From positions 31,102-95,101 of the forward strand of contig KZ627159.1 of the NCBI GenBank assembly GCA_002917775.1: a stretch of 64,000 nucleotides of DNA, read 5' to 3'. Both the position numbers and the translations under genes were made by a program. Positions 9,670 to 62,298 of the stretch are shown one piece after another (the stretch's first letter is position 1; every line of letters begins with the position of its first letter). This stretch comes from Glaciozyma antarctica PI12. Lineage: Eukaryota; Basidiomycota; Microbotryomycetes; Kriegeriales; Camptobasidiaceae. The notes below the pieces were generated by a model. The model was given only the letters and a program-made list of their open reading frames with translations, made no database searches and was not told the origin of the DNA.

Positions 9670-11778
9670 TCAAGCCATCTGGGTGAAGCTAATCAAGTCG
9701 CTCTGGGGCTGGAGCGACAAGCACGCGCGAAGGAAAGTCTCGAGCGCGTTCCTCTGGCGGGAGAGCGAGTTGATAACGTCCGTGCCGGGCTTGACAAGGG
9801 GAGCCTGTGCGATCGTCAGTTTCAGGTTCTTTGACGATGAGGGGAGGAACGGACCTTGAGCATGTAGGACAAGAGGCCGAGGACCGAGTAGAGGCTCTCG
9901 AACTTCGCTGGTGCTGGTAGGTGCGGTAGGTGACGCGGGTAAGGAGCTCGGCGAGGAGGCAGAGATCGATAATGAGGGGGGTAGCGAGGAGCGAGTCCTG
10001 GCACTCGTTGAAGATGTTCTGCGGGAGGAGACGTCAGTGACTGCAATGGGAGAAGACGAGGAAGGAAACGCACGATGGTGGAGCGACCGCCCATGCTGAT
10101 CTCCGAGTAGTACTCGTCGAGCGCACGCTTGTTGTCTCCGACGGCGGGCACGTACTTGATGACGATCTGCAATTTAAGTCGTTAGCAACAAGCGCGATGG
10201 GAGCGAGGCGAGGGAGAGGAACGCACGACGTGATCGGGGTGCTCAGTCTCGTAGCTCTTATCGCCCTTGACGGCGCCCGCAACCGGAGCGATGGGCTTGT
10301 AGAGGAGACTGTTGCTCGCCACCATGTCGTCGACGACCGAGGCCTTGGAGATCTCCTTGGAGCGGAACTGGGCGGGAGCCGAGAGGTTCTTGCCGTCGTT
10401 GTTGCCGAGATGGTTGTACGACGCGATCGAGAGGGGCTTGATACCAGCGCTGACGAGGAAGTCGGCGAGGACGGACTTGATCTGTGATTGCGAGTCGTTA
10501 GCAATGTGTGCGATGAGGGGAGAAGATAGGAACGAACCTTGGTCTGTCCCGACTTGAAGTCGTCTCCACCGATGAAGCTCTTGTGGTGCTCAGCGAGCTC
10601 GATGCATCCAGGAACGAACGTGTTCTGGGGAGCTCCGTTGATGTAGGGGACGCCCTCGAGGATGGCGGCGACGGCGAAGATGGTCGAGGGGGAGACCTCG
10701 AAGTGGTCGTCGCGGATGGCCTTGAGGAGGTTCTCCTTGGTGTCGTGAACGCCGGCGGTAACGTCCGAGTAGCGCTCGGTGTTGGCGGTCCAGAGGATGA
10801 CGACCTGGTCGAGACCGTTGGCGGTCTTGAAGTCGCGGATGTCCTTGCGAATGTGCTCGAGGTGAGCGAGCTTGGACTCTCCGGGGACGACGTTGTCGGC
10901 GCGCTCCTCCTGGTTGGCGTTGATGAACTGGGGGTAGTAGAGCGAGGGGAGAGGCTTGAGGAGCGACATCTGAGGAGCGACCTGGCGCTGGAGATCGTAG
11001 TCGAGGACCTTGGCGCGACGCATGGCCTGGTCGAGAGGCATCGACGAGATGTCCCATCCGCCGACCTGGGGGAAGAACGTGGCTTAGCTTGTGTGCGTGT
11101 GCGCGGGCGATTAAGGAGGGGAGAGTGGGGAGAGGGAAGGGGAGAGGGTGACGACGACGACGAGCGAAATGCGAGACTCACGACGAGGTCGTTGGGGTGA
11201 ACCATGGGGAGAACGTCGGAGAAGGGAACGTTGACGTCCTTGCCCTCCTCGTCGGTACCGAGGCGGAGGGTGGAAGCGCGAACGAGGGATCCGATGTAGT
11301 TGGCGTTCTGAGTTCCCTCGCGAGTCGACCACGACATGTTGTGCTTGTTGGCGATGATGGTAGCGGAGAGAGTCGTTCCGTTGTTGCCTCCCCATCCGAC
11401 GAGCATGAGACTGTGAGGAGGGGATCGTCAGCGGGGGGGGCCCCTCGAAAGCGCAGCGACGGAAACTCACCCAGTCTTGGGGACCTTGCGGACGGTCTTG
11501 AACTCGAAGGGCTTCTCGGAAGGCTTGACGGTGTAACGGTCTCCCTCCTTCTTGACCTGGGTCGAGTGGTAGGTGTACTTGGCGAAGAGGGCCTCGTCGG
11601 TGTACTTGAGGTTGGGGCTGTCGACGGTGATGGGCTCGACGGGGCGACGGGCGGCCGTAGGATCGACGGCGACGGTCTCGGAGGAGTAGTTGTTGGCGTG
11701 GCTAGGGGCCGGGGTAGCAGCGGCGCGAGCACCGTTGGAGCCGTTGGAAGCGGAGTTGTCGAGGGCGATGGGCGACAT
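9670..11778 (-). CDS. INO1: Inositol-3-phosphate synthase
   Basis: Seven exons: 11778-11471, 11410-11182, 11065-10538, 10481-10227, 10166-10074, 10018-9855 and 9804-9670. Family landmarks are all there: [14 protein letters not shown] (NAD-binding Gly motif), [46 protein letters not shown] and [15 protein letters not shown]. The C-terminal exon reads [20 protein letters not shown]. The enzyme converts glucose-6-phosphate to inositol-3-phosphate, the first step of inositol and phosphoinositide synthesis. Exon 6 is one base short: [11 protein letters not shown] is in one frame and [17 protein letters not shown] in another, switching near 9906-9910. Restoring one base would give about 570 aa. The break is probably an assembly or sequencing slip, since both sides are highly conserved. 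Confidence 0.95.
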
Positions 11779-16368: not shown

Positions 16369-16654
16369 GTCCTTCGGCTGCGAAGGCTCTCGGAGGCTGG
16401 AATGGAATGCGATGAGCGGGTCAAAGCGAGTTGGAGAAGTTATTGGCACCACGGCAAGCTTTCAAGACGCGAGAGATAGCTCGAGCAGGTAGCTCAGCTG
16501 AATGGTGAGAACTCGGAACCCCGACGCTCTTCTCCCTTGCCAGTCGAGCACGCGATCTAAAGGCAGCACGACGACGGCCTCCGTGATATGAACAACATCG
16601 CAGCGTGCGAATTACGAAACGACCTCAACGTCCCTAGAACTACATCTCCCGCTC

Positions 16655-18777
16655 TCAAGCCTCCTTCCCCTCCGCCACGTTCCCCAGCCCCAGCCCCTCG
16701 AATCCACTCGACCCAGCACCCAGTTCCGGCGTCGCAATCCCCGGATCGGTCCCATCGCTCCCTCGCCGGCTATCGCTCTTCTTCGGTACGACTTTGGGAG
16801 GTCCTTCGCTGAGTCCTTGCGCGTCGACGCCTCGTACGGGGAGTCCATGCAAGCCTGCGCAGAAGCGTTAGCCTCCGAACCAACGGTTTGCGAGAGAGGG
16901 AGCGCACCTAGCCCTGGCACCTCGTGCCCCTTCAGGTTCCCTCCGACAAGGTACCGCAGCACGTCGCTCAGACTGAGCAGCCCGACCAAGCTCCCCTTCT
17001 TCTTCCCCGGCGAATCCCCCACCGCAGGAACGTCCTCGTCCTCGACGATAACGAAGCGATGGCATCGGCGCTCGCGAATGTAGGCCAGGATCGAGGCGAG
17101 CGTGTCGCGCGGGGTACAGGTGATGACGCCGGTAAAGTCGTTCGAACGCTGGTTGAGAGCGACTTCGATAGTGGCATCGAGGACTTCGTAGGCGTTTTGG
17201 CGAACGAGATCCTGCAAGTAAAGTTCGTTAAGCCACTCTGGGAGGAGGGAGGGAAGAGAGGACGCACGACGATATCGACGGTCTCGTACAAGTTGATGAC
17301 GATACCATCAGCGTCCACAATAGGCACCGCGCTGATTCCCCTCTCCGAAAAGATGTGCACGACATCGAATACGCTCGTCTCGAGCGTCGCCGTCGCGAGC
17401 GGGAAGTACTTGTCGACCACCGCCGTCTCGCCTGCACCGCTGCCGGTCCCGCTTCCTCCTCCTTGTCGCGAAATGCTGCGCGAGCGAGAGCGTATTGATG
17501 GTCGAGAAGGGGGAGTGTGGGAGGGAAGTGCCGTGTTGAGGGAGATGGGGGAGGGGTTCGAGGAGGTCGAGGATGTGCCGCCGGGCGCGTACCAGGAGAC
17601 GTAGGAGCCGATACCGAGAGATCCAATCGACTGATCTAGTCGTGCACAGTCGTGTTGGCACTGTAGTCCCGCTAGTCGTCAGCCAGAGCTCGAGAAACGG
17701 AAAGAGGAACGCACGTTGATGGCAATGAACTTGAGGACTCGGTACTGTGTAAGGACGCTCACGATCGTCTCCTTCCCCGTCTGGTCGTCCCGGTCCACGA
17801 GTGGGAGTCGTCGAGCGTGCGTGCGAACGAGGGCATCGCAGGCGTCGGAGAGCGGTTGATCGGGGTGGACGGAGATGGTGGGAGGAGGAGGAACGTCGAT
17901 AGCTTGCTCAATACCTGTGTACTGTGATAAGCTCCTGGGCCGGTGGAGTGGAGAAACCGAACGTGCTCCTCAGAGACTCGAGCTGAAAGGCTTCCACCTC
18001 CGCAACGACATTCTCGTACTTGTCCACCGTGAGGTAGTAGTACTGGATGAGGTGAACGACGTCGGCCAGAGTGAACATGCCTGCGAAGCGCTGGGTTGTC
18101 GAGTCGTACAGCGGCGCGGAGACGACACCTGCGGAGGGGAGAGGGGGTAAGCAGCTGCTCGCGTGCGCGCGAGATGTAGACAACAGCAGTGGGAGGGACC
18201 CCGTGAGCTGCTCCTCTCACAAAGCAGGCGTCCCCTGGTGCTATCCTCTAGTCCTACGTAGCTCAGCTAGCCCTCCGCACCGCGCTATCCCCAGCCAAAG
18301 CGCGCCCCTCATCTCCCCGACAACACCTTCCCCTGCACACCTGCACCGCCCCAAGCCATCTCACCCAGGCGTTCCCAGCACGCTCAACCTCCTTTATATC
18401 CTCCATCGCATCTCCAAACAGCCCAGCCTGTCGAACCGGGGCGCGAGCCACTCACCATTCGTCACCAACGCGGTCAGACTCCTCGTGATGCTGAGCTTGT
18501 TGTCCAACACGATGAGCCTGAAGGATTCCGGCAAGATGTCGTAGCAACTCTTGCTCCTACGGTCCAGGAACGCACAGGCGGAGGGATACAGCGAGAAGGG
18601 TGGAAGGCGGGCCGGGGAGGAGGGAGGGTCAGGAGGGCGTCAGTGGGAGTTCTGGCGCGACGGGAACGAGCTAGCGCACCTTAAGAACGCCCTGATAGAG
18701 TCGACGGCGCGCAAGTGAGGCTCTCGCTTGGGCTTGACGAGGACGGGTGCTGGCGAAGCGACCTTCTCGGCTTCCAT
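16655..18777 (-). CDS. SNF4: AMP-activated kinase gamma subunit (Snf4)
   Basis: Seven exons, 18777-18680, 18556-18456, 18128-17958, 17914-17715, 17660-17268, 17211-16908 and 16854-16655, give 488 aa in consistent phase. Four CBS repeats can be seen: SCYDILPESFRLIVLD to GMFTLADVVHLIQYYYL; VHPDQPLSDACDALVRTHAR to IVSVLTQYRVLKFIAIN; TLETSVFDVVHIFSERGIS to INLYETVDIV; and VITCTPRDTLASILAYIRER to GSLVGLLSLSDVLRYLVG. The gamma subunit binds adenine nucleotides and controls Snf1 kinase during carbon stress. A Ser/Pro/Arg-rich insert of about 70 residues (SIRSRSRSISRQGG) separates the second and third CBS repeats, and a low-complexity tail follows the fourth. The start ATG is the one that gives a short acidic leader before HLRAVDSIRAFLRSKS, matching other fungal Snf4 proteins. 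Confidence 0.95.
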
Positions 18778-19029: not shown

Positions 19030-21928
19030 CTACAGCCTCACCGCGCCAACCCTCCAAGCCCCTCGCAACGACCCCATCTTCCCCTTCCCCTTCGCCTTGC
19101 CCATCTCGTCCTGCACCACCGCGCTCGGCACAGCCTTCTCGACGCCAATCCTATTCGCACGATCTTCGTTGCCGAGCTTGCCGCCTGTGAGCGTCGGGGC
19201 AGGCGACGTTGACCGCACGCTGTGAGCCTTGACGGTTCGCGGTTCGTCGTCCGACGAGTCTGAGCCTCCGTCCGATGTTGAGGCGACGGTGGCTACCGCA
19301 AACGATGAAGCTGGTGATTCGGAATGGAGAGATAGAGTGGAGGAGGAGGAGGGGGAGGAGGTGACGGCGAGGGGCGAGCTTGCGAAGGTTGATGAGGAGA
19401 AGTCGCTGTCGGCGAGTTCAGGGTCAGCATGCCCGTTTGCGGTGACAAGAATGAACGCACGCATGAGAGGGATCGTAAGATAGCAGGAGAATGAGCGACT
19501 TGAGATTCGGTAGCGTGTTCCGCAGGTCGAAAACCATCAGGCCCTGCGAGTACATGAGCTGTTCAAGAAAGCTCGTCAGCTCTGTCCACCTCACGCCTCC
19601 ACTCGCGAACGCACCTGCTCGATGTTCTTGTTGAGCAAAAAGACGCCGTAATCGAAGCGGTACCGATCCACCCCTCGCGCATAAAGCGGGAACGCCCTCG
19701 GTCCCCTCATCATGCTGATCGGATCCATCACCGCGCTCCGGCTCCCCATGCTCTTGATCGGGTAATGCAGCGGGACGCCAAGGTACCCCGCGAGCGTAAA
19801 GACGACCTGAGCGGCGTATCCCAGTGCCGAGGAGAGGACTTCGTCCGACATCGAGGGCGGGTAGGAGGAGTTGGGGAGAGGGAGACCGACGATGGTGAAG
19901 AGGAGGGAGGATTCTGGCGACGCTGGAGCGGGCTCGATGGGAAAGATTTGTGAGAGGAGGGTGATGAGTTGCGTGCGGCGGGAATGAGAGGCGGTGCGGA
20001 TTGAAGTACAGAGAGCTTCGTCGGAGAGGAGGGAAGAATTCGAGGTGGCGAGAGCGTCGTGTCGCTGGGCGAGGAGATCTCGTGCGGCCTTTAAGCGACC
20101 TCGTCGAGCTCGGAGGGCTTCTCGTCTTGAGGAGATCTCAGCTTTCTCTGCAACGAGTCGTCAGCAAGCGTACGATGATGACCAGGGCGAAAGAACGCAC
20201 CCTCCTCCAAGTCAAGCAGTCCATCTTGCTGAACAGCCTCCAGGTCGTCCACTCGATCAGCAATCTCAGCCTTCTCCCGCTCCTGCTCTCCGTATTCAGC
20301 CCAACGTCCAACGAAGTACGGAATGACGACGCACGAGCGAAAAGAGACCATCCGGAGCCTCGAGCGGCGCATCCATCTTCTTTTTGAGTTGTACGATCGA
20401 GGCTTTGGTGTCCTCGATAACTTGCTGCAGGGTAACGAGCCTGCACGTATACTTCAGCCTCGTCGCTCACTGCACTGGAAAACGAGCTCACCTAATGATC
20501 GCCTCGACGCCCGCACCCTTGACCATTCTCGTCTCCCTCACGCTCTTCTCCACCGCCTCCTTCCTCCTTCTCCGCGCCTCGCTCGCTTCCGCCAGTTCAC
20601 GCTTCTTCCGCTTCGTAACGGCGTTATGAGCGAGTGAGCTCGGGGCGCCAGGGTCGGATTGATTCCCCTCGTCTTCGTCCGAACCGCAGGAATCGCATTC
20701 GTCGCGCGAGGGAAGAGGGGCGGTGAAATACTCGTCGTGGAGGCGAAAGATGAGAGTGTTGGGTGGTAGTGGAGGGAAGGAAGATGGCTGCAGGCAAACA
20801 TCAGCTTTGGCGCGAAGGAGAGGGAGGAACGCGACGCCCCTCTCGACCGAGACTGACGAGCCCGCTCAGGTCGACGTCCCACTCGACCAGCATACCCCAA
20901 TCTTCCTCTCGCTCATTCCCCTTTCCCTCGTCTCCCTCCCTCGTCCAGACCCGCACCAGCACGCGGCCCTCGCGCATCCCCTTCCACTCCTCCGGCTCGT
21001 CGACGAGAAAGTCCTCCTGGTCCACGTCGAAAGAAGGGTGCATCGTGCTGAGTTGAGGTCTTGACACGAAGAACGGCTTCTCCTCCGCACGCGACTTGGT
21101 CGTTGCTCCCAGCAACAACGGCGTCGAGAGGGTCCTACTCCTCGCCTTGCCCTTGGTCGACCCAGGCCTAATCGTCGAGTCGGCCCTCCTCCTCCCACTA
21201 TCCCCACTCCCTCTCCTCTCCGCCTCGCCATGCACAAGATGCAGGCTGACGAAGCTATCCACCAGCCGCTGCCTAAGCGTCTCAACGCGGCGCGCCTTGT
21301 CCCTCCCCAGCTGCGCTTCGCTCGTATAGCTCGTCCCCGTCTCCCGCTCAACCTCCTTGACGACCTCCTCCCTCATCTGAGCTATCCTAATCGTGCTCCC
21401 CGATCCCGCCGACGCCATCGAAGCGCGCGAAGTCGAGCGCCGACGCACGACAGGAGGTGGAGGCTCCGTGATCCCCCCACTTGCGCTCCTCCGCATGCTC
21501 CGCGCTTTGTCATCTCCTGCCCCACCCTCCGCACCCGCCCATTCACTCGGCAGGGTCCTCGCAGAACCGACAGAGAGCAAGCTCGCGTTGCTGGTAGCGC
21601 GGCGCCGTTTCGAGCGGAAGTAGAGGTCCGTGTCGTCCGCTGCGTAGGGCGTGAGAGGCGGTGGTTGGGCGTGAGAGGAGAGTGTGTGTAGGCGTGGAGA
21701 GTGGGTGAGGTTGCGGATAAGGATGGAGGAGAGGTGTCGCAGTCGGCGCTGTGGAGTGGGGATGGTCAGACCGCGTTTGTGGGTGTAGTGCGCGAGAAGG
21801 ACACAGATCAGAAGAGCTGCTTTGGACACGAAGTAGGCTGGGGAACTCGGAACACTCACTTGATCGTGGGGGACGGCAGGATCGTTGTCGAGCGGAGGGA
21901 GCTGCCATGACGAGCTCGAGGCGAACAT
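19030..21928 (-). CDS. VPS38: UVRAG/Vps38-type subunit of the Vps34 PI3-kinase complex
   Basis: Eight exons, 21928-21860, 21748-20858, 20787-20492, 20440-20335, 20282-20201, 20147-19615, 19558-19461 and 19405-19030, give 816 aa in consistent phase. The N-terminus has QRRLRHLSSILIRNL, typical of UVRAG proteins. The middle is a long coiled coil (VTLQQVIEDTKASIVQLKKK, EREKAEIADRVDDLEAVQQD, REALRARRGRLKAARDLLAQ). The C-terminal BARA-like region reads FTIVGLPLPNSSYPPSMSDE, ALGYAAQVVFTLAGYLGVPL, HYPIKSMGSRSAVMDPIS and YRFDYGVFLLNKNIEQL. This subunit pairs with Beclin/Vps30 and directs Vps34 to endosomes for vacuolar sorting. Residues after about 690 are a Ser-rich, Lys-rich tail. The start is the first ATG before the conserved QRRLRHL. 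Confidence 0.93.
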
Positions 21929-28729: not shown

Positions 28730-31700
28730 ATGGCCTACTCCTACTCGCAACAGGCACCGCCTTCACTCGCGGCCTTGCTCGAGCAATCCCAGCGCCTCAC
28801 CTCCTCCCTCGCTCAACCCGCCGACCTCCCTCAGATCCAGCTCGGCTTGGACCAGATCGAGAGTCAGAGTAGGAGGATCGCAGGACGGAGCGCCAAGGAA
28901 GCTGGGGCTGGAGGCGCAAGAGAAGGAGGGAACGCGTGAGTCGTCTTTTTGAGGGCGTGTTTGGTGTTGCGGGAGAGGCTGGGGAAGCTTCAAGGGGAGC
29001 AAGCAGCAGCCAGGATGTGCTTTGAAGTAGCTACCGGACCTGCTTGAAGCTCGGCCTGAGCTATCCACCCGTCTCGGACGAACACCGCTCAACTCGTGCA
29101 GCAGCTCACTGACTCTCTCTCCACAGCTACTACCTCCTCGCTTCTGGCGGAGTCAACGCCGACCAGCTCTCCTCTACGATCAATGCCGTCTCCCTCACCG
29201 GCACTTTCGAGCCCCTCCTCCCTCTCAGCGATACCGACGTCGAGGTGCGTCTCCTCCGCGTCTATCCTCCCGGCCCCGCTAACAACGGACACGCAGGGCT
29301 ACCTCCGCCACACGCACGAGCAAACCATCATCTCCTCTATCGAAGAAGGTCGGCGCCAAACGACTGCAGACTTCTACCGCAATCTCGACGGCCAGATGAG
29401 GCGTAATTGGGAGCAGCAGAAGGAGAAGCTCTTCGAGGAGCTCGGACGGCATCAGGGATCTGCGACTGCGTCTGGATCTGGAGGTCGTGCGGATTCAGGG
29501 GAGACGCCGAGGAGGAAGGGCGCTGGAGGAGGGTTCGACCGAGGAGTGAGTTCCGGCGCCTTCCTGCTGCTGGAGAGGAGCTGATGGGTTGGGTTTAACA
29601 GAGTCCAGCGGGGCAGGCACCGAGTGCGGCGAGCGCTCTCCAGATGCACTCGCGTATGATGCGTTACGATCGAGTCGTGCGCAAGTTGAACGAGTACCGG
29701 AAGCAGGGGTACTCGTTTGGGCTTGTCTCCTCGTTTGGCGAGGCGAGCGTCGGAGCTGCTGGGGATTCGGTGCGTTCCTGGTTTGACTGACTGCTTGAGA
29801 ATGCTGCTAACTCGCGTCCGAGCAGAAGGCGGCGCAGACGACCGAGACCTGGAGACTCCTTAGCCACCTCGTCAAGGAGCGGGACGTCATCAATGGCGAG
29901 TTCCAGCGCACGAGTCTCAGCGAGCGGCAGTACGCGCGCGCGTACCTTGCTTCAGACCAGGAGGGCGCCGAGGCGACAGAGTTGCGGAAGATGATCGGGG
30001 ATGGTGCGAGGGATGGAGCTCGACCTCCAGTGAGTGGTCTCGCTCGAAGCTGGGGAAGGGGAAGAAGCTGATGAGCTTTGCAGGTTCATCAACTACGTCG
30101 AGAAGACGCTGGCATCACGACCTGCGGAAGCTGGCCTTGGAGGCGTTCCGTCGATGCAGAACAAGATTCGCGCCTTCCTTAACGTCAAGTACCAGAAGCA
30201 AGGAGCGTGGACCAACTCGAGTCTCGAAGTAGGTCGCTTCTTCGAGCCTATTTCCAAGCAGACGCTGACGTTCAACGCCAGATCGTCAACAACACGCCCG
30301 TCTGGGCGAGGATCTACTACCTCCTCCGCTCGGGACACGCCAAGGACGCTCTCGAGTTCGCTACGGAGAACGAGCCTCACATTCAGAAGCTCGAAAAGAG
30401 TTTTGTCCCGTACTTCAAGGCCTGGCTCGACAGCCCCGACCGCCGGTTCGTCGTTCTTCGTTCTCCCGCCTCCGTCGCTGACCTCCGACTCTCACAGACT
30501 ACCCAAACTCCTTCGCGATCGCTTCCTCTCCGAGTACAACCAACGCATCCGCTACCTCACCGACACCTCGGATCCCTACAAGCACGCTCTCTACAAGCTC
30601 ATCGGTCGCGTCGAGCTCTCGCGCCGGAACGTCCCCGGAGTCACGCAGACGACCGAGGACTGGCTTTGGTTCCAGCTTAGCCTCGTGCGCGAGAACGAGG
30701 GACCGGGAGAAGCGCCGCATGAGCGGTACGGGCTTAGGGACCTCGGGAGGGTGTTGGTCAAGTTCGGCGAAGGGCACTTTGATCCCAAGGGGAACAGGCC
30801 GGTGTTGTACTTCCAGGTGCAGGTGCTGAGCGGGCAATTCGAGAGGGTGAGTCGGCCAGATGCGAGACCGGAGAACGAAGCTGATGCGGTTTGCGCAGGC
30901 CGTCGCGTTCCTTCATCAACACTCGCAGTTTCAGGCCGACGCAGTCCACTTTGCCATCGCTCTCTCGTACTATGGACTCCTTCGCGTTCCAGCAGGACCC
31001 AGGACTTCCGACGTCGAACTTCGTACGTCCTTCCGCTCCTCCCCTCCTTCCTCGAACTAATCTCTCACCACAGTCGTCATCGACCAAGACGGCGCCGGCC
31101 ACGATGTCACGCACCTCAACTTCGCCCGCCTTCTCCACCGCTACACGCGCGCGTTCGTCCAGAGCGACGCGCAGGAGGCGCTTCACTACCTCTACCTCAT
31201 CTGCCTCAACGCCGACCTTCCTGCGCCGGCGGGACCGGAACAAGTCGCGCTGTGCCACGACTACATTCGCGAGCTTGTGATGGAGACGAGGAAGTACGCC
31301 GAGCTGCTGGGGGATGTGCGGAACGACGGAACGAAGATCGTGCGTTGGACTCCATCGGCTGGGTGGAAAGCAGCTGACGGACGTTTGTGCAGTCCGGAAT
31401 GCTCGAACGAGACCTCAAGCTCATCCACCTCAAGGACGAGAAGTCGTACCTCCTCGGAATCGTCAAGGCCGCCGCACACCGCGCCGACCAAGAGAAGCGG
31501 TTCTCGGAAGCGATCCTCCTTTACAACCTCGCCGAGGAGTACGACGCCGTCATCTCCGTTCTCAACGTCGAGCTCGGCAACTCGCTCTCGCGGCCTTCGT
31601 CGGCGTCAGCAGGGAGCGAAGCGGCGGCGTACTTCCGCGCCGGAGGGGAGAGCGTCGCGATGGCGGCGGGGCAGGAGGACGTGGCTAAGATTGCGCGGAG

Positions 31701-32330
31701 CATCTTGGAGCACTACGATCGGTCGAGCGGGATTGGGGGACGTGTGTCGAGGAAGAACAGGGAGACGTGCGCGGTGCTCATGCGGCTCAAGGAAGCCATG
31801 ACGCTGTACGAGGAGAACAGGCTCGACCATGCGCTCGAGGTGAGCTTCTTTTCTCTTTAACCGTGCGTGGGTGGAGCTGATGCGCGGGAGCAGGCGATCG
31901 AGGCCGTCAATATTATCCCTCTTCATTCGGACCTCGTCGCCATCATTCGTGCGGCGGAGGAGTTCAAGGAGCTCGACGAGGCGATCGTTCGCAACTTTGA
32001 TGTCATCCTCCTGACGACGATGAACATCATCTACAAGATCCACGGCGGGCTCAAGGAGAGTCCGTACGGCGACGCGAGTCGGCAGCAGGTGCATTTCGCG
32101 TTCTTTTGATTCGCAGGAGCTTGAGCGACGAGCTGATTCGATTCTGCGTACGTAGAAGATGACGGAGCTGCGACAAAAGGCACGCTCGTTGATGATGTTC
32201 GCCGGCATGGTACGTTCGCTCCTTGCGAGAGGCGAAGCAGGAACTGACCGACCTCACTCTTCAGCTACGCTTCCGCCTTACGAGCGACACTTATGCGGCG
32301 TTGACTCGGTTGGATGTCTTTATTCACTGA
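28730..32330 (+). CDS. NIC96: Nucleoporin Nic96/Nup93
   Basis: Fourteen exons: 28730-28935, 29127-29244, 29297-29545, 29602-29769, 29826-30029, 30084-30228, 30282-30445, 30498-30846, 30899-31022, 31074-31339, 31393-31839, 31894-32088, 32156-32209 and 32265-32330, about 917 aa. An N-terminal coiled-coil region (LEQSQRLTSSLAQ, HTHEQTIISSIEEGRRQTTA) leads to the Nic96 solenoid: VWARIYYLLRSGHAKDALEF, LPKLLRDRFLSEYNQRIRYL, TEDWLWFQLSLVRENEG, AVHFAIALSYYGLL and SEAILLYNLAEEYDAVISVL. Nic96 builds the inner ring of the nuclear pore and anchors the Nsp1 complex. Between exons 5 and 6 the phase fails by one base: removing a G near 30018 would give DGLDLQFINYVEK. Alternatively, an acceptor eight bases upstream at 30075 (exon 6 starting CTTTGCAGG) keeps the frame as LCRFINYVEK. 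Confidence 0.93.
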
Positions 32331-52200: not shown

Positions 52201-52947
52201 CGACAAGGCCCCGGCGCCTGTCGCGCCTAACGGAACTGCGAGAGGAGGGACGCCGGTGCAGTCGCTTTCGGGGTTGCTAGAGGTGTTGCCCGAGACGGAG
52301 AAGCGGCCGAGGAGGCAGGATGTGCATATCCTCCTGGCCGAGGGTGCGTCGCTGATTTCGCTGCTTGTTGGGAGTGAATGAGCTGATGCGCGGAGCAGAT
52401 AACGACTTGATTCGGGAGATCGTGACGAGGACGCTCATCAAGATGAATGTGCGTTGGAAGCTCGTCGTGCGTGAGCTCAGGAGCTAACGTCGCTCCGCCA
52501 GTTCCACGTTCGTGCGGTACCAGACGGTGCTGCCGCCGTACAAGCTGTCGCTGAGGAGCACTACGACTTGATGTGCGTCCCGTCCTTCTCTCACCACAAT
52601 CCTCCGTCGCTGACGCTTCTCCCGCCGCAGCCTCATGGACGGCCAAATGCCAGGTCTCGACGGCTACGCCGCGACGGCACAGATCCGAGCCTCACCCATT
52701 CCCGCTACTCGCGACATCAAGATCATCGCTCTCACCGCCAGCGCAATACAAGGCGACAAGGAACGCTGCATCGCAGCAGGCATGAACAGCTACCTCGCCA
52801 AGGTGAGTTCTCCTGTCTTTCGTGGCAGCTTTCGAAAGCTGAACGTGCTCTTCGCAGCCTGTGCGCGCAAAAGACTTGGAAGCTGCCATTTGGGCTCAGC
52901 TGGATCCTTCTTCGTCACCTCCCCTCTCTCCTCCTCTCCCGCTGTAG
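49265..52947 (+). CDS. PAS-domain hybrid histidine kinase
   Basis: Eighteen exons from 49265-49914 to 52858-52947, joined in phase except for exon 1, to about 903 aa. The N-terminal region is followed by a PAS domain (ICFTATVDGHIDYFNKQWFA, YTGLTHWESFDTAKWLSVFH) and its PAC part (VEYRIMGADGIWRWMVAKGR). A second PAS-like part follows (LLSVDRSSIVTFFEGSTIAA). The kinase core has the H box FVTNISHEIRTPIASIIGIC with the phospho-accepting His, the N box GLSNAIKFT, DTGIGIDAAVLPTLFTPF, and a G box GGSGLGLVIAKN. The receiver domain shows HILLAEDNDLIREIV, the phospho-accepting Asp in LILMDGQMPGLDG, and IIALTASA with its Lys in YLAKPV. No membrane span, so a cytosolic sensor feeding the Ypd1/HOG relay is likely. 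One base is missing in the C-run at 49635-49652; both sides are conserved. Confidence 0.92.
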
Positions 52948-53449
52948 TAGTGTACTTCTCTCGCAGTCGCATGTTGTTTATGGTAACGCATTTGAGTTAT
53001 TTTGGAACAATCGATTGGGTTTCTCCCCCTTTTATCTCAAGACGCCTGCTCGCGGTACCCAGACCTGAGTGCCGACAAAAGCTGCTTTCCAAGCTTCCCT
53101 CCGACCCCCTCCCATCCTCCCTGCCCGACCTTCAGTCCCTGTCGTCCACCATCTCGTACCTGCTCCCGTCGCTCAGCGAAACAGTGATTTCGGCGGTAAG
53201 GAGGAAGGAAAGAGTCAAGCGAGCGAGTTCTCCTCTTCTGCTTGCTTCGGAGTCCGGCCACTCTCACGATTCTTGCTCCCCTAGGAAACGAAGCTGAGAT
53301 TGAGATTTCTTTACCAGACTGAACGTGTCCTTGTTGACGCCGTTCACCAGAAGCCCAGGGAGCTCGGTCGAGAGGTGGCTGCGAGAGCTGGTGAGAAGGG
53401 GCAGCTGAGACGAAGGACTCTCGCGACGTGAACGCGGAGCTTGCAAAGA
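52948..53449. other. Convergent intergenic region
   Basis: About 500 bases; no gene recognised. Confidence 0.45.
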
Positions 53450-55830: not shown

Positions 55831-56357
55831 ATGAGCCACAACCACGCCACAGGTCGGTCCCTCCCCCCCTCCTCTCCTCCCGCCTCACTCCGCTGACCCT
55901 GCCTCCCCCTTCCCGCAGACCATGCCGCTGAGGCTGGCAGCAGTGTCAGCGGCGGACACTCTGAGCACAGCATGAGTACCTTCTTCACCACTTCGTGCGC
56001 TCCCAGCCCTCCTCCCTCGTGCCTCTCTCCTCGCCAAGCTGACCTCTCCCCAGCCCTGGCGCCGCAACCCTCTGGATCGAATCCTGGACCCCCTCCACAG
56101 TCGGCACCACCATCGGCGCCTGTATCGGCCTCTTCCTCCTCGCCCTCTCCTCGCGCCTCCTCTCCGCCCTTGCAACCGCGTACCAACGCCGCTGGTCCTC
56201 CTCGATCGCTCTCCGCCGTTCCTCCTCCTCGACCTCCTCCCTCGAAAAACCCCACCTCACCACTGCATCCCCATTCGTCCCCTCGATCGACTTCCCGCGC
56301 GCAGGGCTGTTCGCGCTACAGCGCGCTGCGTCACTCGGGGCTCAACGTTGGGAATGA
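55831..56357 (+). CDS. Ctr-type copper transporter, apparently truncated
   Basis: Three exons, 55831-55852, 55919-55994 and 56054-56357, give 133 aa. The N-terminus is His/Met-containing and extracellular (MSHNHATDHAAEAGSSVSGG, HSEHSMSTFFTTSPGAATLW). The Ctr signature (L)WIESWTPSTVGTTIGACIGL leads into the first membrane span, FLLALSSRLLSALATAYQRRW. The cytoplasmic loop and the start of the second span (IDFPRAGLFALQ) are recognisable, but the frame then reads RAASLGAQRWE and stops. The second and third spans, with MxxxM and GxxxG, are not found downstream in any frame. Instead an antisense BIM1-like first exon begins there. A full Ctr has three spans and forms a trimer, so this copy is probably non-functional or rearranged. 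Confidence 0.75.
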
Positions 56358-56384
56358 GGGGAGACGGCTGCGAACGGGACTCAC

Positions 56385-56505
56385 GATTGGGGATAGCTTC
56401 GCCAGCCGGACTGGTGCCGTTCGCAGCGCCGCGCGAGAGAGGGCTGAGGAAAAGCTGTGCGGAAGCAGTGCTGGCGAGAGCAAGGAGGGCTACAAGGGAC
56501 TTCAT
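56385..56505 (-). pseudogene. First exon of a BIM1-like secreted protein (fragment)
   Basis: One exon: MKSLVALLALASTASAQLFL then SPLSRGAANGTSPAGEAIPN, ending at a GTGAGT donor (56384-56379). The signal peptide and the x-L-x-x-P-L-x-RG pattern resemble the starts of the BIM1-like genes at 58.4 and 61.1 kb. No second exon with FCGGF follows on the minus strand, because the Ctr gene occupies that position on the other strand. Best read as a duplicated fragment. Confidence 0.5.
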
Positions 56506-57076
56506 GGTGTTGAGCGAGGAGCGGAGAGTGGCTCCCCGCCTCTGGATACTCAAGACGGTAGCAATGTGCCGCGCCCGGCGTGGCCTATCGGCGCTAGCGT
56601 GGCTTCCGACGCAAAACTAGGAAGCTGGAAGGCGGAGACGGCGCGAGGAGCAGCGGAGCAAACCCCGAAAAGGGAGAGGAGAGGAAGTGGAGAAAGAGCG
56701 TTGAGGTGACTGGCGAAGACGCGAATTGAGAAAGAGAGAGGTTGCGCTCCCAAACTTGTGCCGGTGGCAGCAAAGCCGGGAAACGGTTCCTCTGCGACGT
56801 TGCGTGGAAGCAAGATGATTACACGTGCGGAGAAGTCCTGTAAGTCCGGTACGGAATCTCCGAGAAAGGTCACTGGGTAGGAAGAGCTAAAAATGTGTGA
56901 ATCTCGGTAGCGAGGTGCGCTTGCTCGAGGTCGTGCGAACTCCCTCAAGCGGGAATCTTCGAGGCAGGAACACAGGACGCTGGGTACAGATGTAATGTAG
57001 AGTTATACAGGAGCAATGCGCAGCTTTTTGTTTACTTCTGCAGAGGGGCGTTCGACAGCAACAGCACCCATCTCGT

Positions 57077-57914
57077 CTACAAACCCAGCACAACCAGCGC
57101 AACCAGTCCCACTACCCCCACCCGCCCCACCAGACCTCCAACACGTCTTTTTCTTCCGGCCGCCGATACAGATACAGAAGTGTGCTCGCAGGTCAGCGGC
57201 ACCTGAGGCATTGACGAGAGGACGACGTCGGCGCACTGATCTTCTCGTTAGCGAGTTTGCGAAGGGAATGGCAAAAATCAAGGCACTCACAGCAATCGTT
57301 GTGAAACGCATGGAGCCCTCTCGGGTGGGGTCTTGCGGCGCAACCACGAACACTCTGAGGAGTCAAATCAGAAGGAGTTGACGAAGAGAGAACTTGAAGG
57401 TCCTGAACGCACTGAATTGTCGCAAGATCACCGTCCTTGACTGTTCGTCCACTACCGACCTCCGTAACGTTTGTATCAAAGCACCACTAAATCCCTTATC
57501 AGCCTCCTTCCGCACCCTCGACACGAAAGAAAAGACGCACCTGTCCCCCGCTATCGAACTTGCGCACCCCACCCAGCAACACGCTCGTCCTGTTGAACTC
57601 GAAACTCGTCGACGGAGCGTCCCCAAAAAAATATGAACACGCTCGCCTCCCCCGATGACTTGTACAGCGTCGTCGATACCTGTCCGCCCTCGAGCGGGAA
57701 TCGCGGGCGGTCTGCAACAGTATTGGTGGCGTTCACCCATCCTCCGCAGAAGAACGGAGCTGCAAACAAGGAGGTCTTAGTGCGGGAACGGAGAGGCAGA
57801 AGGGAGGTCGGACTTGCTGGGTAAGAGGCTGCCAGTGCTGTTGAAGATGCCCCCCCCCCCGCGCGCTTGGGGGAAGTCGAGCGTGAATTGAGTGAAGGGA
57901 AGACCCTTGAACAT
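57077..57914 (-). pseudogene. BIM1/X325-like copper-protein paralogue, frame-broken
   Basis: Recognisable exons: FTQFTLDFPQARGG-IFNSTG (57890-57830), PFFCGGWVNATNTVADRPRF, PLEGGQVSTTLYKSSGEASV, FIFFGDAPSTSFEFNRTSVL, LGGVRKFDSGGQ, a TGG-TGC exon (WCFDTNVTEVG), VFVVAPQDPTREGSMRFTTI, and a last exon 57235-57077 with CADVVLSSMPQVPLTCEHTS and a hydrophobic GPI-type tail (VVGLVALVVLGL). Two frame breaks fall in single-base runs: ten G (plus-strand C10 at 57850-57859) and seven T (minus strand) near 57625. No convincing signal peptide is attached. The N-terminal copper His is Gln here, and the second His position is not His. Confidence 0.7.
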
Positions 57915-58137
57915 GGCGGTGGGTGAGGAGTGAGGACAGAGCAGGAGCGGCGACTCCGAACAAAGAAGCAGGTGCGTGCCCCGACGGTCTGCGCCCAGCG
58001 CGGCCTAGCGTGCTTTCGGCCTTTCGGCCAGGCTCCACTTCAATCCACTCGTTTCTACTTTACTCCACTCTTTACCCATCCGTCGAGAGCGAGAACGGAG
58101 AGGCGGAGGCGGGGGGGGGGAGAAGAAAGGCACAGGA

Positions 58138-58385
58138 GAGAACTTGGGCGAGAACGGCCCTCTTGCCAACGGCTAACTCGGCGTTTCGGCACTTGTTGGC
58201 AATTCTGAAGAGGCCAATCGCTTTAGAATGCTTTTAGGATGAACATTGCAAGCCAAAGTTGTGCGAAAAGAGGGAGGAGAACTGGGCTGAGAAGGGCCTC
58301 CGTTGGCCCCCCCTTTAACTCGCCTCAGGAGCTTGTTTTCGCAATTCTGAAGAGGGCCTTCTCTCAAGAAGACTTTAGGAGGGAA
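58138..58385. repeat. Imperfect tandem duplication (~140 bases)
   Basis: Two copies, about 58138-58243 and 58279-58385, share GCAATTCTGAAGAGG, an AACT(T)GGGC(G/T)GAGAA start and CTTTTAGGA/CTTTAGGA ends. It lies between two broken BIM1-like loci and shows the local instability. Confidence 0.7.
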
Positions 58386-58407
58386 AGGGGCAGGGAGGAC
58401 GAAAGGA

Positions 58408-58521
58408 CGAACCTGGCGAGACAGACAGCTGGCCGGCAGGACCTCGCTGGACCGGGTAATCAAGCGTGAACTGGGCGCAGACAGCGGTCGCAAAGACAGA
58501 GAGAGTGGCCAGGGAGTTCAT
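58408..58521 (-). pseudogene. BIM1-like first exon (fragment)
   Basis: The exon reads MNSLATLSVFATAVCAQFTL then DYPVQRG, that is a clear signal peptide followed at once by the family start Q-F-T-L-D-Y-P-x-x-RG. No FCGG exon is found downstream on this strand before the next locus. Residue 1 of the mature protein would be Gln, not His. Confidence 0.65.
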
Positions 58522-58918
58522 TCTCTATACAAGCAGGAGGAAGAGAGAGAAAGGACCGGCGGGGACTCCGTCTTTGCAAAAGCAGACGGCAAGACATGCG
58601 CGCATTAGCGTTGCTCCCGACGTAGCTCGCCAGGACGAGAACAGCACGGAAGACGACGAGGACTCGTCGAAGAGTGATGCAGGAGATTGCAGGAGACAGA
58701 TGTTGGGATTGTAGTGAAAAGCGTGCCGCCGTCGTCTCGTCGCAGAGCGAATCTCGGTAGCGAGGTTCTCACGGGCATGCGAAGGTTTCCAAGCTCGTTA
58801 GCCTGAGAGCAGCCTCTCAATGGCTCGCATGCAGTAGTAAGCCGTGCATGTCCTCCCTCTTATGTACACAGCGCTGCGCTATTCAACAAAAAACGAATCA
58901 CGAATGCCTCCCCTCCTT

Positions 58919-59774
58919 CTACAAAACCAACGCAACAAGCCCGAGCAACCCCAGCAACCCTCCCAATTCGACTGCTCTTCCCACTGCCGAGTTCACAGTG
59001 TGATCGCAGGTCAGGTTCGGCGGCGCAACGGTCGACGACAGGATGACATCCGCGCACTGCGTTGCTCGTCAGCGGTGAGCGGAGAGGCGGCAGGAGAGCG
59101 TCAACTCACAGACGACCCATAAAAACGCATGGAGCCAAGGTTGACGGGCGTCTGCGGCACAGAAACCAGTACTCTGCAAGAACAGCATCAGCGGTGTCCC
59201 ATGAGAACATCTTGAACGCACTGAATCGTCGCAAGCGTGCCCTCCCCGACGCCTGCAATCCCAAGCGCCGCAACATCCGTACCGAAGCACCACTGGAGCA
59301 CATCACCAGCCCTTCTTGTCATGTCTGAAGCGAACACGCACCTGTCCAGAGCTGTCGAGCTTCCGCACCCCGTCTAGCGGCGCGCTAGTTTTGTTAAAGA
59401 AATCATCCGCCGAAGAGGGAACCTCCCCAATCGAGATAAACAGGCTCGCCTCGCCCAATTTGAACTGGACGCCAGTACCCCCCACCGCCTGATAGATGCT
59501 CGTCGACACTTGCCCACCGGAGAGGGGGAACCGAGGCCGGTCAGCGACAGCGAGAGTCGCGTTGGGCCATCCTCCGCAGAAGGATCTACCTGCGCACAGT
59601 GGTCATCAGCTCTAAGATTGAGGAGGCCGGAGGAGAGCACGTACGGACGAGGTCGGCGTCAGCCCCGTTGAAGATACCTCCTCGAGGTTGAGGGTAATCC
59701 AGCGCAAACGGCAAACGAGCTGGGCGGAAGCAGCGGTGGCGAGAGCGAAGAGGGCAAGGAAAGACTTGTACATC
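58919..59774 (-). CDS. BIM1/X325-like secreted protein (LPMO-like), diverged copy
   Basis: A signal peptide MYKSFLALFALATAASAQ is followed by a frame break at 59703-59716, a 7-base tandem duplication GCAAACG-GCAAACG on the plus strand, before FALDYPQPRGGIFNGADADL. The next exon is intact: SFCGGWPNATLAVADRPRFP, LSGGQVSTSIYQAVGGTGVQ, FKLGEASLFISIGEVPSSAD and LDGVRKLDSSGQ. Then come WCFGTDVAALGIAGVGEGTL, VLVSVPQTPVNLGSMRFYGS and a last exon with CADVILSSTVAPPNLTCDHT and the hydrophobic tail LLGLLGLVALVL, typical of a GPI-anchor signal. The expected copper His residues (position 1 and the one after the FPLSGG strand) are absent, so copper binding in the BIM1 manner is unlikely. Confidence 0.75.
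59700..59722. repeat. 7-base tandem duplication at a frame break
   Basis: GCAAACGGCAAACG (plus strand) sits exactly where the signal peptide frame and the mature-protein frame disagree. Confidence 0.7.
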
Positions 59775-60097
59775 GCTTTCGACGCAAGGGGAGCAGGAGA
59801 AGAGAGGGAGAGGGAGAAGCAGAGCGGGTTCTCCGCCCGCGAGGCTGAGCGCGCTGCGGTTTAGCGTGCTTTGCCCCACTTAAGCCCGGCTCTAATCCAA
59901 AGGACCTGTGGAGCAGGGGCCCCAGGGTGACTTGAAGATGGAGGAAGGATGCGAAGAGAGAAGATGGCCTTCAGAGATCGAGGTTTCAACCTGCGCACTG
60001 CGGAGTGGCGCCGGAAGGGACGTAGGATGTCGGCGGAACTCGTGCTGAGCGCAAGCAGACCTGTGGAAGCCAGATTCTTGTTCACCAAGCAGCACGT

Positions 60098-61113
60098 CTA
60101 CAGAACCATGCCTGCCAGCCCCACGAGCCCTAGCAGACCCCCAACGACCGCTTCCCTCCCCGCCGCGCCAGTCGAAGCCGTCGTCGTCGCAGCCGTCCCG
60201 CTGGCAGTCGTCGTTGCGCTTCCCACCAACACCACCGTCGAGGTCGCAGCCGTAGCGGTGCCGTTCTGGCAGATTGCCATTGGAAGCGGTGAACGAGGAA
60301 GAGATGGCGATGTCAGTCGTCGTTGCGCTTCCCACCAACACCACCGTCGAGGTCGCAGCCGTAGCGGTGCCGTTCTGGCAGATGACGTCGGAGGCGGTGA
60401 ACGAGGACGAGAGGGTGATGTCGGAGCACTGCGAGGCCAGTCAGCGAAGGTACGTAGGCAGCGAGAAGCGGGAGGCGGACCTGGTAGAGAGCGCCGTCTC
60501 CTCCGTTAAAGGTGACCCTGTGAGCGAAAGGTCAGCAGGCGGCGAGTAGGGTGAATGGGAGAAGCGCACTGGAGAGTGGCATTCGTGCCGTCCGCGACTC
60601 CCGCAACTCCGAGAGCCGCAACATCGACGTTAAAGCACCACTGCATATTTGCATTAACTCCCCCTCCCTCCCCATCACACCCGAGAGACGACGCACGATC
60701 CCATCCACGGTGATAGATCCAAAGCCCTTCAAGATAGGGATCGCCGCTCCGCTGCTCGTCGTATTGAAGTCGGCAAACGAAGTAGGCGCCTCGTCAAAGG
60801 AGATGGTGATGGCTACGTCGGCGGTAGGGTGGCTTGAGTCGATCACGACGGGCCCGCCGGAGAGGGGGAAGAGTTGGCGTGGGAGGAGGGTGTTGTTGAA
60901 GCCACCGCAGAAGTCTGCAGGAGAGAGGGAGGGTCAGCTACCCGCAGAGCGCTGCATAAAGCGAGAGGAGAGGGGTGATGGAGAAGGGGGCTGGGGGAGA
61001 ACGGACGTACTTGGCTCGAGGTCCTCGTCGAACCCCCGTGTGAGGGGGTAGTCGAGCGTAAAGTGGGCAGAGGCCACGGCTGCGAGCGAGAGGAGGGCGA
61101 TAACGGATTTCAT
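60098..61113 (-). CDS. BIM1/X325-like copper-binding GPI protein (best preserved copy)
   Basis: The signal peptide MKSVIALLSLAAVASA is followed by HFTLDYPLTRGFDEDLEP, so cleavage would leave His as residue 1, the hallmark copper ligand of BIM1/X325 and LPMO-like proteins. Later exons read NFCGGFNNTLLPRQLFPLSG, GPVVIDSSHPTADVAITISF (candidate second His), DEAPTSFADFNTTSSGAAIP, KGFGSITVDGI, WCFNVDVAALGVAGVADGTN and CSDITLSSSFTASDVICQNG. A hydrophobic GPI-type tail (GGLLGLVGLAGMVL) closes it. In Cryptococcus, BIM1 is a GPI-anchored copper protein that helps Ctr1 acquire copper. Near the C-terminus a 108-base tandem duplication (60205-60420) repeats the ICQNGTATAATSTVVLVGS segment, and the two copies are one base out of phase, so the tail is read correctly only with one copy. 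Confidence 0.82.
60205..60420. repeat. 108-base direct tandem duplication
   Basis: The unit starting CAGTCGTCGTTGCGCTTCCC occurs at 60205 and again at 60313 and is identical for about 70 bases, then diverges (one extra base in the left copy). It lies in the C-terminal Ser/Thr-rich part of the BIM1-like gene. Confidence 0.85.
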
Positions 61114-62298
61114 GGTTGAGGAAGCGTCGTCGAGTGCGGAGTGAATGGTAGGAAGCAGAGAGACGACGGGCGCCGAAGTTGAGACGAGGCGTGGTGGCTT
61201 AACCTCGGGCCAGTTTCGCGCGACCGCGTTGGTTCGCCGGGGAGGAGGATAAGAGCGTTGGAGGAGAACTCCAAGAGCTGCTGAGGACAAGTGGAGTAGT
61301 CCATCTGCAGTCCCCGCTCAAAGCAAGCGAAGCCTCCCTTCCTGCGCCGAGAGAGCCCGCCCTGAGCTCGCGCCAAACTCCTCAACCAACGTTGATTTCT
61401 GCCCGGCTTTTCGTTACGCTCCCTCGTCCCGTGCTTCTCCCGAACAACCACGCGGTTCCAACGGCCTCAGGAGAACGTACGAGGGGCAAGCAGCTGATCC
61501 GAAGGGACCTTGAGAGCAGCTGACGACGACGGAGGTGCTGAGGTCGCGGAGGGGGCGGAGGGGGCGGAGGGGGCGGAGGGGGCGGAAGGGGAGGTGGAAG
61601 AGGAGGGTGTGTTGAGGTGTTTGGCGGCAAGCTGGGTTAAGGCTGGCGGCGACGGTGTCCTGCAGGGCTGAAGAGGAGAGGTGGTCGTGAGGAGGAGCCG
61701 AGGGATGGGACGATGACGAGATGGAGGAGCGAGTGTATTCGTTCGTTGTGGCTTTCGCTGGTGAGGTCCTACGGCAAGGATGGAGGTGGGAGGAGGTCGA
61801 GGAGGTCGTGGAAGGAGGGGAGTTGGTTGCTGAGGCGCTGGACGTCGAGGCGGGCGTCCTGGAGGTGCCGTGGAATGCAGCGAGAGCGAGTCAAGTAGCT
61901 GCTGCTGCTGGCTGTGTACACCGTCAACGGCGAAGGCGGGAGGTGAACGAGGACGTGGGAGGAAGGAGAAAGGCGGCGAGCGATTTTGGCTGAGAGAACT
62001 TCGCCAGCCGAGTTTGGCTGAGCCAGATCGAGTGCGCGATTTCTGCGCTCCTTCTTTGTCGTTCTTCGAGAGTTATCCGAACTCTGTACGCCAGCAGGAG
62101 AGACGCAGAAGAGCTCTTGATACTGCTGACTCCTCGGGTACTTCGATTTCCTCCTGCAAATCCACCGCCAAAGCCACCTTCGCCACCTCCGCACCGCACC
62201 TTCGCACGAGCTCGCCCTCGTTGACGCCGGTGCATTAATCTGCGCAACGAACAAGGGAAGCACGTCAGCTTAAGAACAGCAGCAGCAGGGGAACGAGC
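61114..62298. other. Unresolved region with minisatellite and coding-like minus segments
   Basis: About 1.2 kb. On the minus strand, 62225-62085 reads GVNEGELVRRCGAEVAKVAL and LAVDLQEEIEVPEESAVS, and 61600-61480 reads LAAKHLNTPSSSTSPSAPSA; both look like parts of an unrecognised gene, which I could not assemble in one frame. A 9-base minisatellite (GGGGGCGGA)n lies at 61550-61590. Confidence 0.35.
61548..61594. repeat. Minisatellite (GGGGGCGGA)~5
   Basis: Five near-perfect copies of GGGGGCGGA. In the overlapping minus frame they would code Ser-Ala-Pro repeats. Confidence 0.85.

Follow-up and report, generated by a model that had tools for sequence, protein, structure and literature searches.

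We describe here a cluster of genes of two copper-uptake families in a 64,000-nucleotide stretch of contig KZ627159.1 of the basidiomycete Glaciozyma antarctica PI12 (assembly GCA_002917775.1, positions 31,102 to 95,101 of the forward strand; this whole stretch is referred to below as the window). Between positions 55831 and 61113 of the window a Ctr-family gene on the plus strand adjoins five minus-strand loci of the X325/BIM1 type, which we designate A to E. The interpretation that we favour, and consider probable, is that this is an ancestral Ctr-BIM1 neighbourhood that was expanded by tandem duplication, suffered one deletion and has by now mostly decayed, with E as the copy that stayed canonical. 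An initial annotation of the same DNA had proposed a working, perhaps co-regulated copper module of Ctr and BIM1. Its assignment of the two families and their physical clustering are upheld by matches to PF04145 and PF20238 and by our exon models; the sequence as it stands gives no support to a working module: membrane spans 2 and 3 of the Ctr gene are lacking, and of the five BIM1-type loci four are fragmentary or broken and have glutamine at the place of the first copper-binding histidine (His1).

To define the genes we read 10 kb around the cluster, listed the open reading frames (ORFs) and built exon models manually, using GT-AG (in one case GC-AG) splice sites that kept the frame and the family motifs (Table 1). 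The ends of the interval are exact, 55831 being the start codon of Ctr and 61113 that of gene E. The window has a high GC content (0.57–0.63 per 2-kb segment) and its genes contain introns, as in basidiomycete yeasts. A four-intron layout is common to E, D and B, in which the 12 modelled introns measure 48–96 nt, and the first exon ends in phase 1 when read from the ATG in A, B, C and E, and in D only when read in the frame that carries FALDYP; because of this shared layout and the phase-1 first exons we regard the five loci as one family. With the Pfam cut-offs of 25.3 bits for PF04145 and 27 bits for PF20238, Ctr, E and D score above the cut-off whereas A, B and C do not. The initial annotation had pictured up to five loci running from a signal peptide through to a glycosylphosphatidylinositol (GPI)-like tail, and of this picture the family assignment stands and the completeness does not: A and C consist of exon 1 only, B has no signal peptide, and D and E are split between frames.

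Table 1. Features of the Ctr-X325/BIM1 cluster (positions in the window)
Feature	Position	Strand	Description
Ctr gene remnant	55831..56357	+	Exons 55831-55852, 55919-55994, 56054-56357; 133 aa; PF04145 match
Ctr/A junction	56322..56384		Ctr (+) stops, relic A (-) starts; read from sequence and model boundaries
Relic A	56385..56505	-	Exon 1 only, with signal peptide and Gln in place of His1; ends in phase 1; donor GTGAGT
Motif CACGCTA	56595..56601	-	-96 from A ATG
Locus B	57077..57914	-	Exons 57914-57818, 57759-57541, 57486-57413, 57354-57291, 57235-57077; hydrophobic C-terminus
Motif CACGCTA	58006..58012	-	-98 from B ATG
Relic C	58413..58521	-	Exon 1 only: signal peptide and QFTLDYPVQRG, phase 1, donor GTTCGT
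Locus D	58919..59773	-	Signal peptide from 59773; FALDYP frame 59708-59645; exons 59589-59342, 59292-59222, 59173-59110, 59056-58919; hydrophobic C-terminus
Motif CACGCTA	59862..59868	-	-95 from D ATG
Gene E	60098..61113	-	Exons 61113-61011, 60914-60697, 60640-60570, 60517-60481, 60428 onward; PF20238 and 6ibh matches
Tandem duplication in E	60205..60422	-	Period 109, 2.0 copies, 92% matches; Ser/Thr-rich linker

The Ctr protein carries the LWIESWTPSTVG signature and one membrane span (56118–56174), and it matches PF04145 over profile positions 2–119 of 151 with 49.4 bits (E 9e-13), in agreement with the signature and first span given in the initial annotation, which had named only that span. 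Its frame continues through the lead into span 2 as far as 56321 and then runs for 11 residues to a stop. Only one of the three membrane spans that define the Ctr family is present; spans 2 and 3, with the copper filter, are missing. A hydropathy scan for a second half of the gene further along the plus strand found none as far as 58600: no second hydrophobic 19-mer (mean hydropathy >1.5) is seen on the plus strand between 55831 and 58600, the sole such segment being span 1 at 56118. Nor is there an MxxxM, the methionine filter pattern of Ctr span 2, in the three plus-strand frames from 56300 to 58600. The conserved filter methionine of Ctr proteins sits in the second span (PMC11509074; this and the papers below are cited from portions of their text), and because that span and span 3 are missing, the predicted product as it stands cannot be a Ctr pore. 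Searches of PDB with Ctr and of NCBIfam with Ctr or E returned no match. The antisense relic A starts within about 60 bp of the end of the Ctr sequence, and the junction most plausibly marks a tail-to-tail deletion, or else a misassembly.

Gene E is the copy with a canonical ectodomain, which matches PF20238 with 100.6 bits (E 1.4e-28, profile 1–139 of 140) and aligns with LaX325 of Laetisaria arvalis (PDB 6ibh; E 1.2e-23) over 17–164, which includes the HFxLxxP start, the second histidine and YQC(A/S)D. His1, situated after the signal peptide, the second histidine and the aspartate of E align with their counterparts in LaX325, predicting a histidine brace plus aspartate, where the ligand positions are read from the alignment and not from a structure file. 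A histidine brace with an aspartate is described for Bim1 and X325 proteins (PMC7529816, PMC10952591), and the aspartate is the fourth ligand in X325 (PMC10952591). The tandem duplication of E lies between the region of the last cysteine and the GPI-like tail, and because its 109 bp are not a whole number of codons the tail, which ends at 60098, is out of frame with the ectodomain. It is possible that a fifth intron restores the tail, as an in-frame intron can be drawn from three candidate donors; in the one candidate examined, 47 nt separate the acceptor from its only branch-like site, which appears to be far outside the usual range: among the 14 other modelled introns, 12 have their nearest branch-like site at 8–22 nt from the acceptor, and in two (D2 and B1) none was found. 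Among pattern matches in collections of prokaryotic and viral contigs (28 and 9 respectively), tblastn confirmed no relatives of the E ectodomain, the outcome to be expected there.

The other four loci are incomplete or broken in different ways. No body was found after the first exon of A or of C, and neither fragment matches PF20238 at E<=1, the only Pfam row for A being unrelated and below its cut-off; the signal region of A is 80% identical to that of D over 50 nt, compared with 60% and 64% for C and E. Locus B starts with an ATG but lacks a signal peptide, its best 15-residue hydropathy being 0.32 as against 1.71–2.09 in A, C, D and E, and its exon 2 breaks the frame at a 7-nt A/T run (57625–57631). 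The two pieces of B around this break score 18.5 and 17.8 bits against PF20238, below the cut-off, the first of them having been scored with the C exon-1 sequence joined before B exon 2. The FALDYP of D is not in the frame of its signal peptide, and exon 1 read from the ATG is 129 nt long and ends in phase 0; the joined mature part reaches 37.7 bits against PF20238 and E 1e-05 against LaX325, while the exon-2 fragment alone has no Pfam match. We class A, B and C only as putative relics, by exon-1 structure and DNA similarity.

Several smaller features of this part of the interval are recorded here. Intron 1 of B (57817–57760, minus strand) has the GC-AG border. Two diverged copies of a 39-nt element occur at 58196–58376, between relic C and locus B, and the palindrome-like word CTCGGTAGCGAG has two plus-strand occurrences in the window (56903 and 58753), both in spacers of the array. 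Half of the ten homopolymer runs of at least 7 nt in the window fall within 55831–58600, including runs of 10 and 11 (binomial 3e-5, for a range picked after looking).

An alignment of LaX325, E, D and B shows that the aspartate after the cysteine and the cysteines themselves are common to all four, and that both copper-binding histidines are missing from D and B. The His1 place is taken by glutamine in A, B and C, and the signal peptide of D ends in glutamine; the mature part of D and the pieces of B have no histidine other than the one in a C-(D/E)-H that they share, which follows the last cysteine. As neither brace histidine is present we do not file D and B as copper-binding X325 proteins. 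Ratios of nonsynonymous to synonymous divergence (dN/dS), which come from a simple NG86 count and are rough, with dS up to 1.63, are 0.19 (64 codons) and 0.49 (110 codons) for B-D, 0.44 (56 codons) and 0.57 (84 codons) for B-E, and 0.34 (150 codons) for D-E. These values suggest that, after loss of the brace, B and D diverged mostly under constraint, before or without decay. A tentative suggestion, possible rather than probable, is that there is a brace-less branch of X325/BIM1, made up of surface proteins that keep the domain, the aspartate, the cysteines and the hydrophobic tail and have given up copper, born in tandem beside a canonical BIM1 and Ctr, selected for another task and perhaps also present in relatives.

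From these observations we infer the following order of events. The starting point would have been a Ctr gene and a gene of the BIM1/X325 type as convergent neighbours, the scavenger gene then being expanded by tandem duplication. Copy E would have stayed a canonical histidine-brace protein that binds extracellular copper through His1, the second histidine and the aspartate at the cell surface and passes it to Ctr, as BIM1 does in Cryptococcus. Loci A to D would represent a second sub-lineage that lost the brace early and for some time diverged with purifying selection still acting; they now appear to be decaying, two being cut to exon 1, one lacking its signal peptide and two having frame breaks. 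A single deletion between the convergent genes would have taken away the body of A together with the 3' end of Ctr, which encodes spans 2 and 3, and left the remnants tail to tail. As assembled, the cluster is therefore not a self-sufficient copper-uptake module; any E protein that is produced would depend on a Ctr encoded elsewhere in the genome.

There are points that weigh against this history. The Ctr/A junction at 56.32–56.38 kb could be a misassembly, and sequence errors may account for the small frame breaks in B, D and E, because the gene for myo-inositol-1-phosphate synthase (INO1; about 9.7–11.9 kb, minus strand; Pfam NAD_binding_5, E 6e-78) is also broken. The break at 9905–9930 of the minus strand leaves 2 nt between conserved pieces where the two PDB relatives displayed, out of four matched, have 4–5 residues, which suggests that the gene is broken or that the assembly contains indel errors. 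In addition, the break in B falls in a 7-nt homopolymer, and the tail frame of E is open to its stop and hydrophobic, which argues that the tail is in use. The upstream regions also share more short words than expected: 20 words of 7 nt are common to at least four of the six regions, compared with a mean of 8.1 and a maximum of 15 in 40 shuffles, and two words of 8 nt compared with a mean of 0.3 and a maximum of 2. The counts used regions of unequal length, with 600 bases each upstream of A, E and Ctr, 495 upstream of B, 397 upstream of C and 324 upstream of D, the region of A being offset 3 bases too far upstream. The shared 7-nt words are mostly CT-rich, CTCCCTC occurring in all six regions including that of Ctr, and this weak shared upstream composition may be regulatory. 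The break in INO1, the homopolymer at the break in B and the shared 7-nt words, together with the good conservation of E and of Ctr up to the junction and the existence of a comparable co-regulated trio in Aspergillus fumigatus (see below), favour the alternative that the initial annotation was right, that Ctr and BIM1 form a working, co-inherited copper module and that the frame breaks and the truncation of Ctr are assembly errors. We consider this distinctly unlikely. Small indels cannot explain the missing Ctr spans, the exon-only A and C, the B locus without a signal peptide or the histidines lost from B and D, and errors are not everywhere in the assembly because in Nic96, a second conserved gene, a canonical intron that runs from GTAGGT at 30229 to CCAG at 30281, CTGAC preceding the acceptor, accounts for the first frame switch, the one that was checked. 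At least four of the six upstream regions have no 9-nt or 10-nt word in common, and on this result and the missing spans a co-regulated working module was rejected.

A different reading of the same loci is that A to D belong to a functional brace-less X325 branch with a role other than copper, for example a structural one in the cell wall or at the surface. In this reading D, and perhaps B too, would be alive, their frame breaks being errors. The B-D dN/dS values and the conserved introns speak for it, as do the retention of the aspartate, the cysteines and the hydrophobic C-termini, the C-(D/E)-H that holds the only histidine, and the possession of an upstream motif of their own at a constant distance. 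This motif, CACGCTA, occurs seven times in the window on either strand, including the trio upstream of A, B and D (Table 1), and is not present upstream of Ctr, E or C. It is the one positioned motif of the upstream regions, and its sharing by three copies of the array also speaks for the history that we favour; a positional probability of 8e-10 was computed after the motif had been seen, and its positioning is explained by common descent of the upstream regions. We nevertheless regard a live branch as rather unlikely, as B has no signal peptide, the frames of both B and D are broken as given, A and C are first exons only, and the dN/dS values average over the time preceding any decay. It is very unlikely that exon 1 of C serves as an alternative first exon that supplies the body of B with a signal peptide across a 653-nt intron. 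The phase-1 end of C exon 1 does join B exon 2 in frame, but this fit is expected anyway because phase 1 is common to the first exons of the family, an intron of that size is unusual beside the 12 modelled ones, and the frame break in B exon 2 would remain. The word TTTGCT, which we take to be copper-element-like, is found twice upstream of A only and is uninformative.

Compared with the Bim1/Cbi1-Ctr1 system of Cryptococcus neoformans, the locus described here is similar in that E has the PF20238 domain with His/His/Asp and has a Ctr-family gene in its neighbourhood, and differs in that this Ctr has one of three spans and the other copies of the array are brace-less. To our knowledge the CBI1 and CTR1 genes are not linked in the C. 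neoformans genome. Bim1 is a member of X325 that works together with Ctr1 (PMC7924993), a shortage of copper induces Cryptococcus Bim1/Cbi1, which interacts with Ctr1 (PMC9258870), and Bim1 is said to occur with other copper transport proteins (PMC10952591). Against LaX325 (PDB 6ibh, 6ibi and 6ibj), E aligns over the whole domain and D weakly, the difference being that D and B are without both copper-binding histidines.

The initial annotation knew of no description of such a cluster in this lineage. The pairing of Ctr and BIM1 is not new: a comparable neighbourhood is in print for A. fumigatus, where Afu6g02800 (putative GPI protein), Afu6g02810 (ctrA2, copper transporter) and Afu6g02820 (metalloreductase) lie side by side, are regulated together and have been deleted as a group (PMC2481287). 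The consecutive accessions XP_747797.1, XP_747796.1 and XP_747795.1 are tabled beside BLP2 (VC83_03095), CTR1a and an FRE7-type protein (VC83_03096) of Pseudogymnoascus destructans (PMC13208438), and it is because of this table that Afu6g02800 is probably of the BIM1 type. The consecutive tags VC83_03095 and VC83_03096 in the same table suggest a BIM1-FRE neighbourhood in P. destructans too, a species with three BIM1-like and two Ctr genes (PMC12113139). Neighbourhoods of Ctr and BIM1 are thus an arrangement of a kind already known; our locus resembles that of A. fumigatus, in which the neighbour of the Ctr gene encodes a GPI-anchored protein and is co-regulated, and differs from it in that no tandem array is described there in the parts of the literature examined. 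No metalloreductase was detected among the 30 ORFs or ORF pieces searched against Pfam, out of 240 stop-to-stop ORFs of at least 120 aa in the window. The unusual part is the array with brace-less copies, none like it being described in the titles and abstract openings returned by literature searches, and the brace-less sub-lineage will be worth following after confirmation of the sequence.

Provided that the array is real, it would represent a scavenger family that duplicated beside its transporter, lost its metal site while under constraint and then decayed, and would amount to a natural experiment on which parts of X325 matter besides copper. If instead the breaks are assembly errors, the locus would be a basidiomycete-type counterpart of the A. 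fumigatus Ctr neighbourhood. Either way, clustering of families in raw sequence need not mean a working module.

Elsewhere in the window there are Pfam matches to a Nic96 nucleoporin (30034–31798, plus strand), an ATG14-type protein (19594–20160, minus strand), a CBS domain (16615–17307, minus strand) and a response-regulator domain (52614–53294, plus strand). A 9-bp tandem repeat, GCGGAGGGG, with 5.1 copies and 97% matches is located at 61546–61591.

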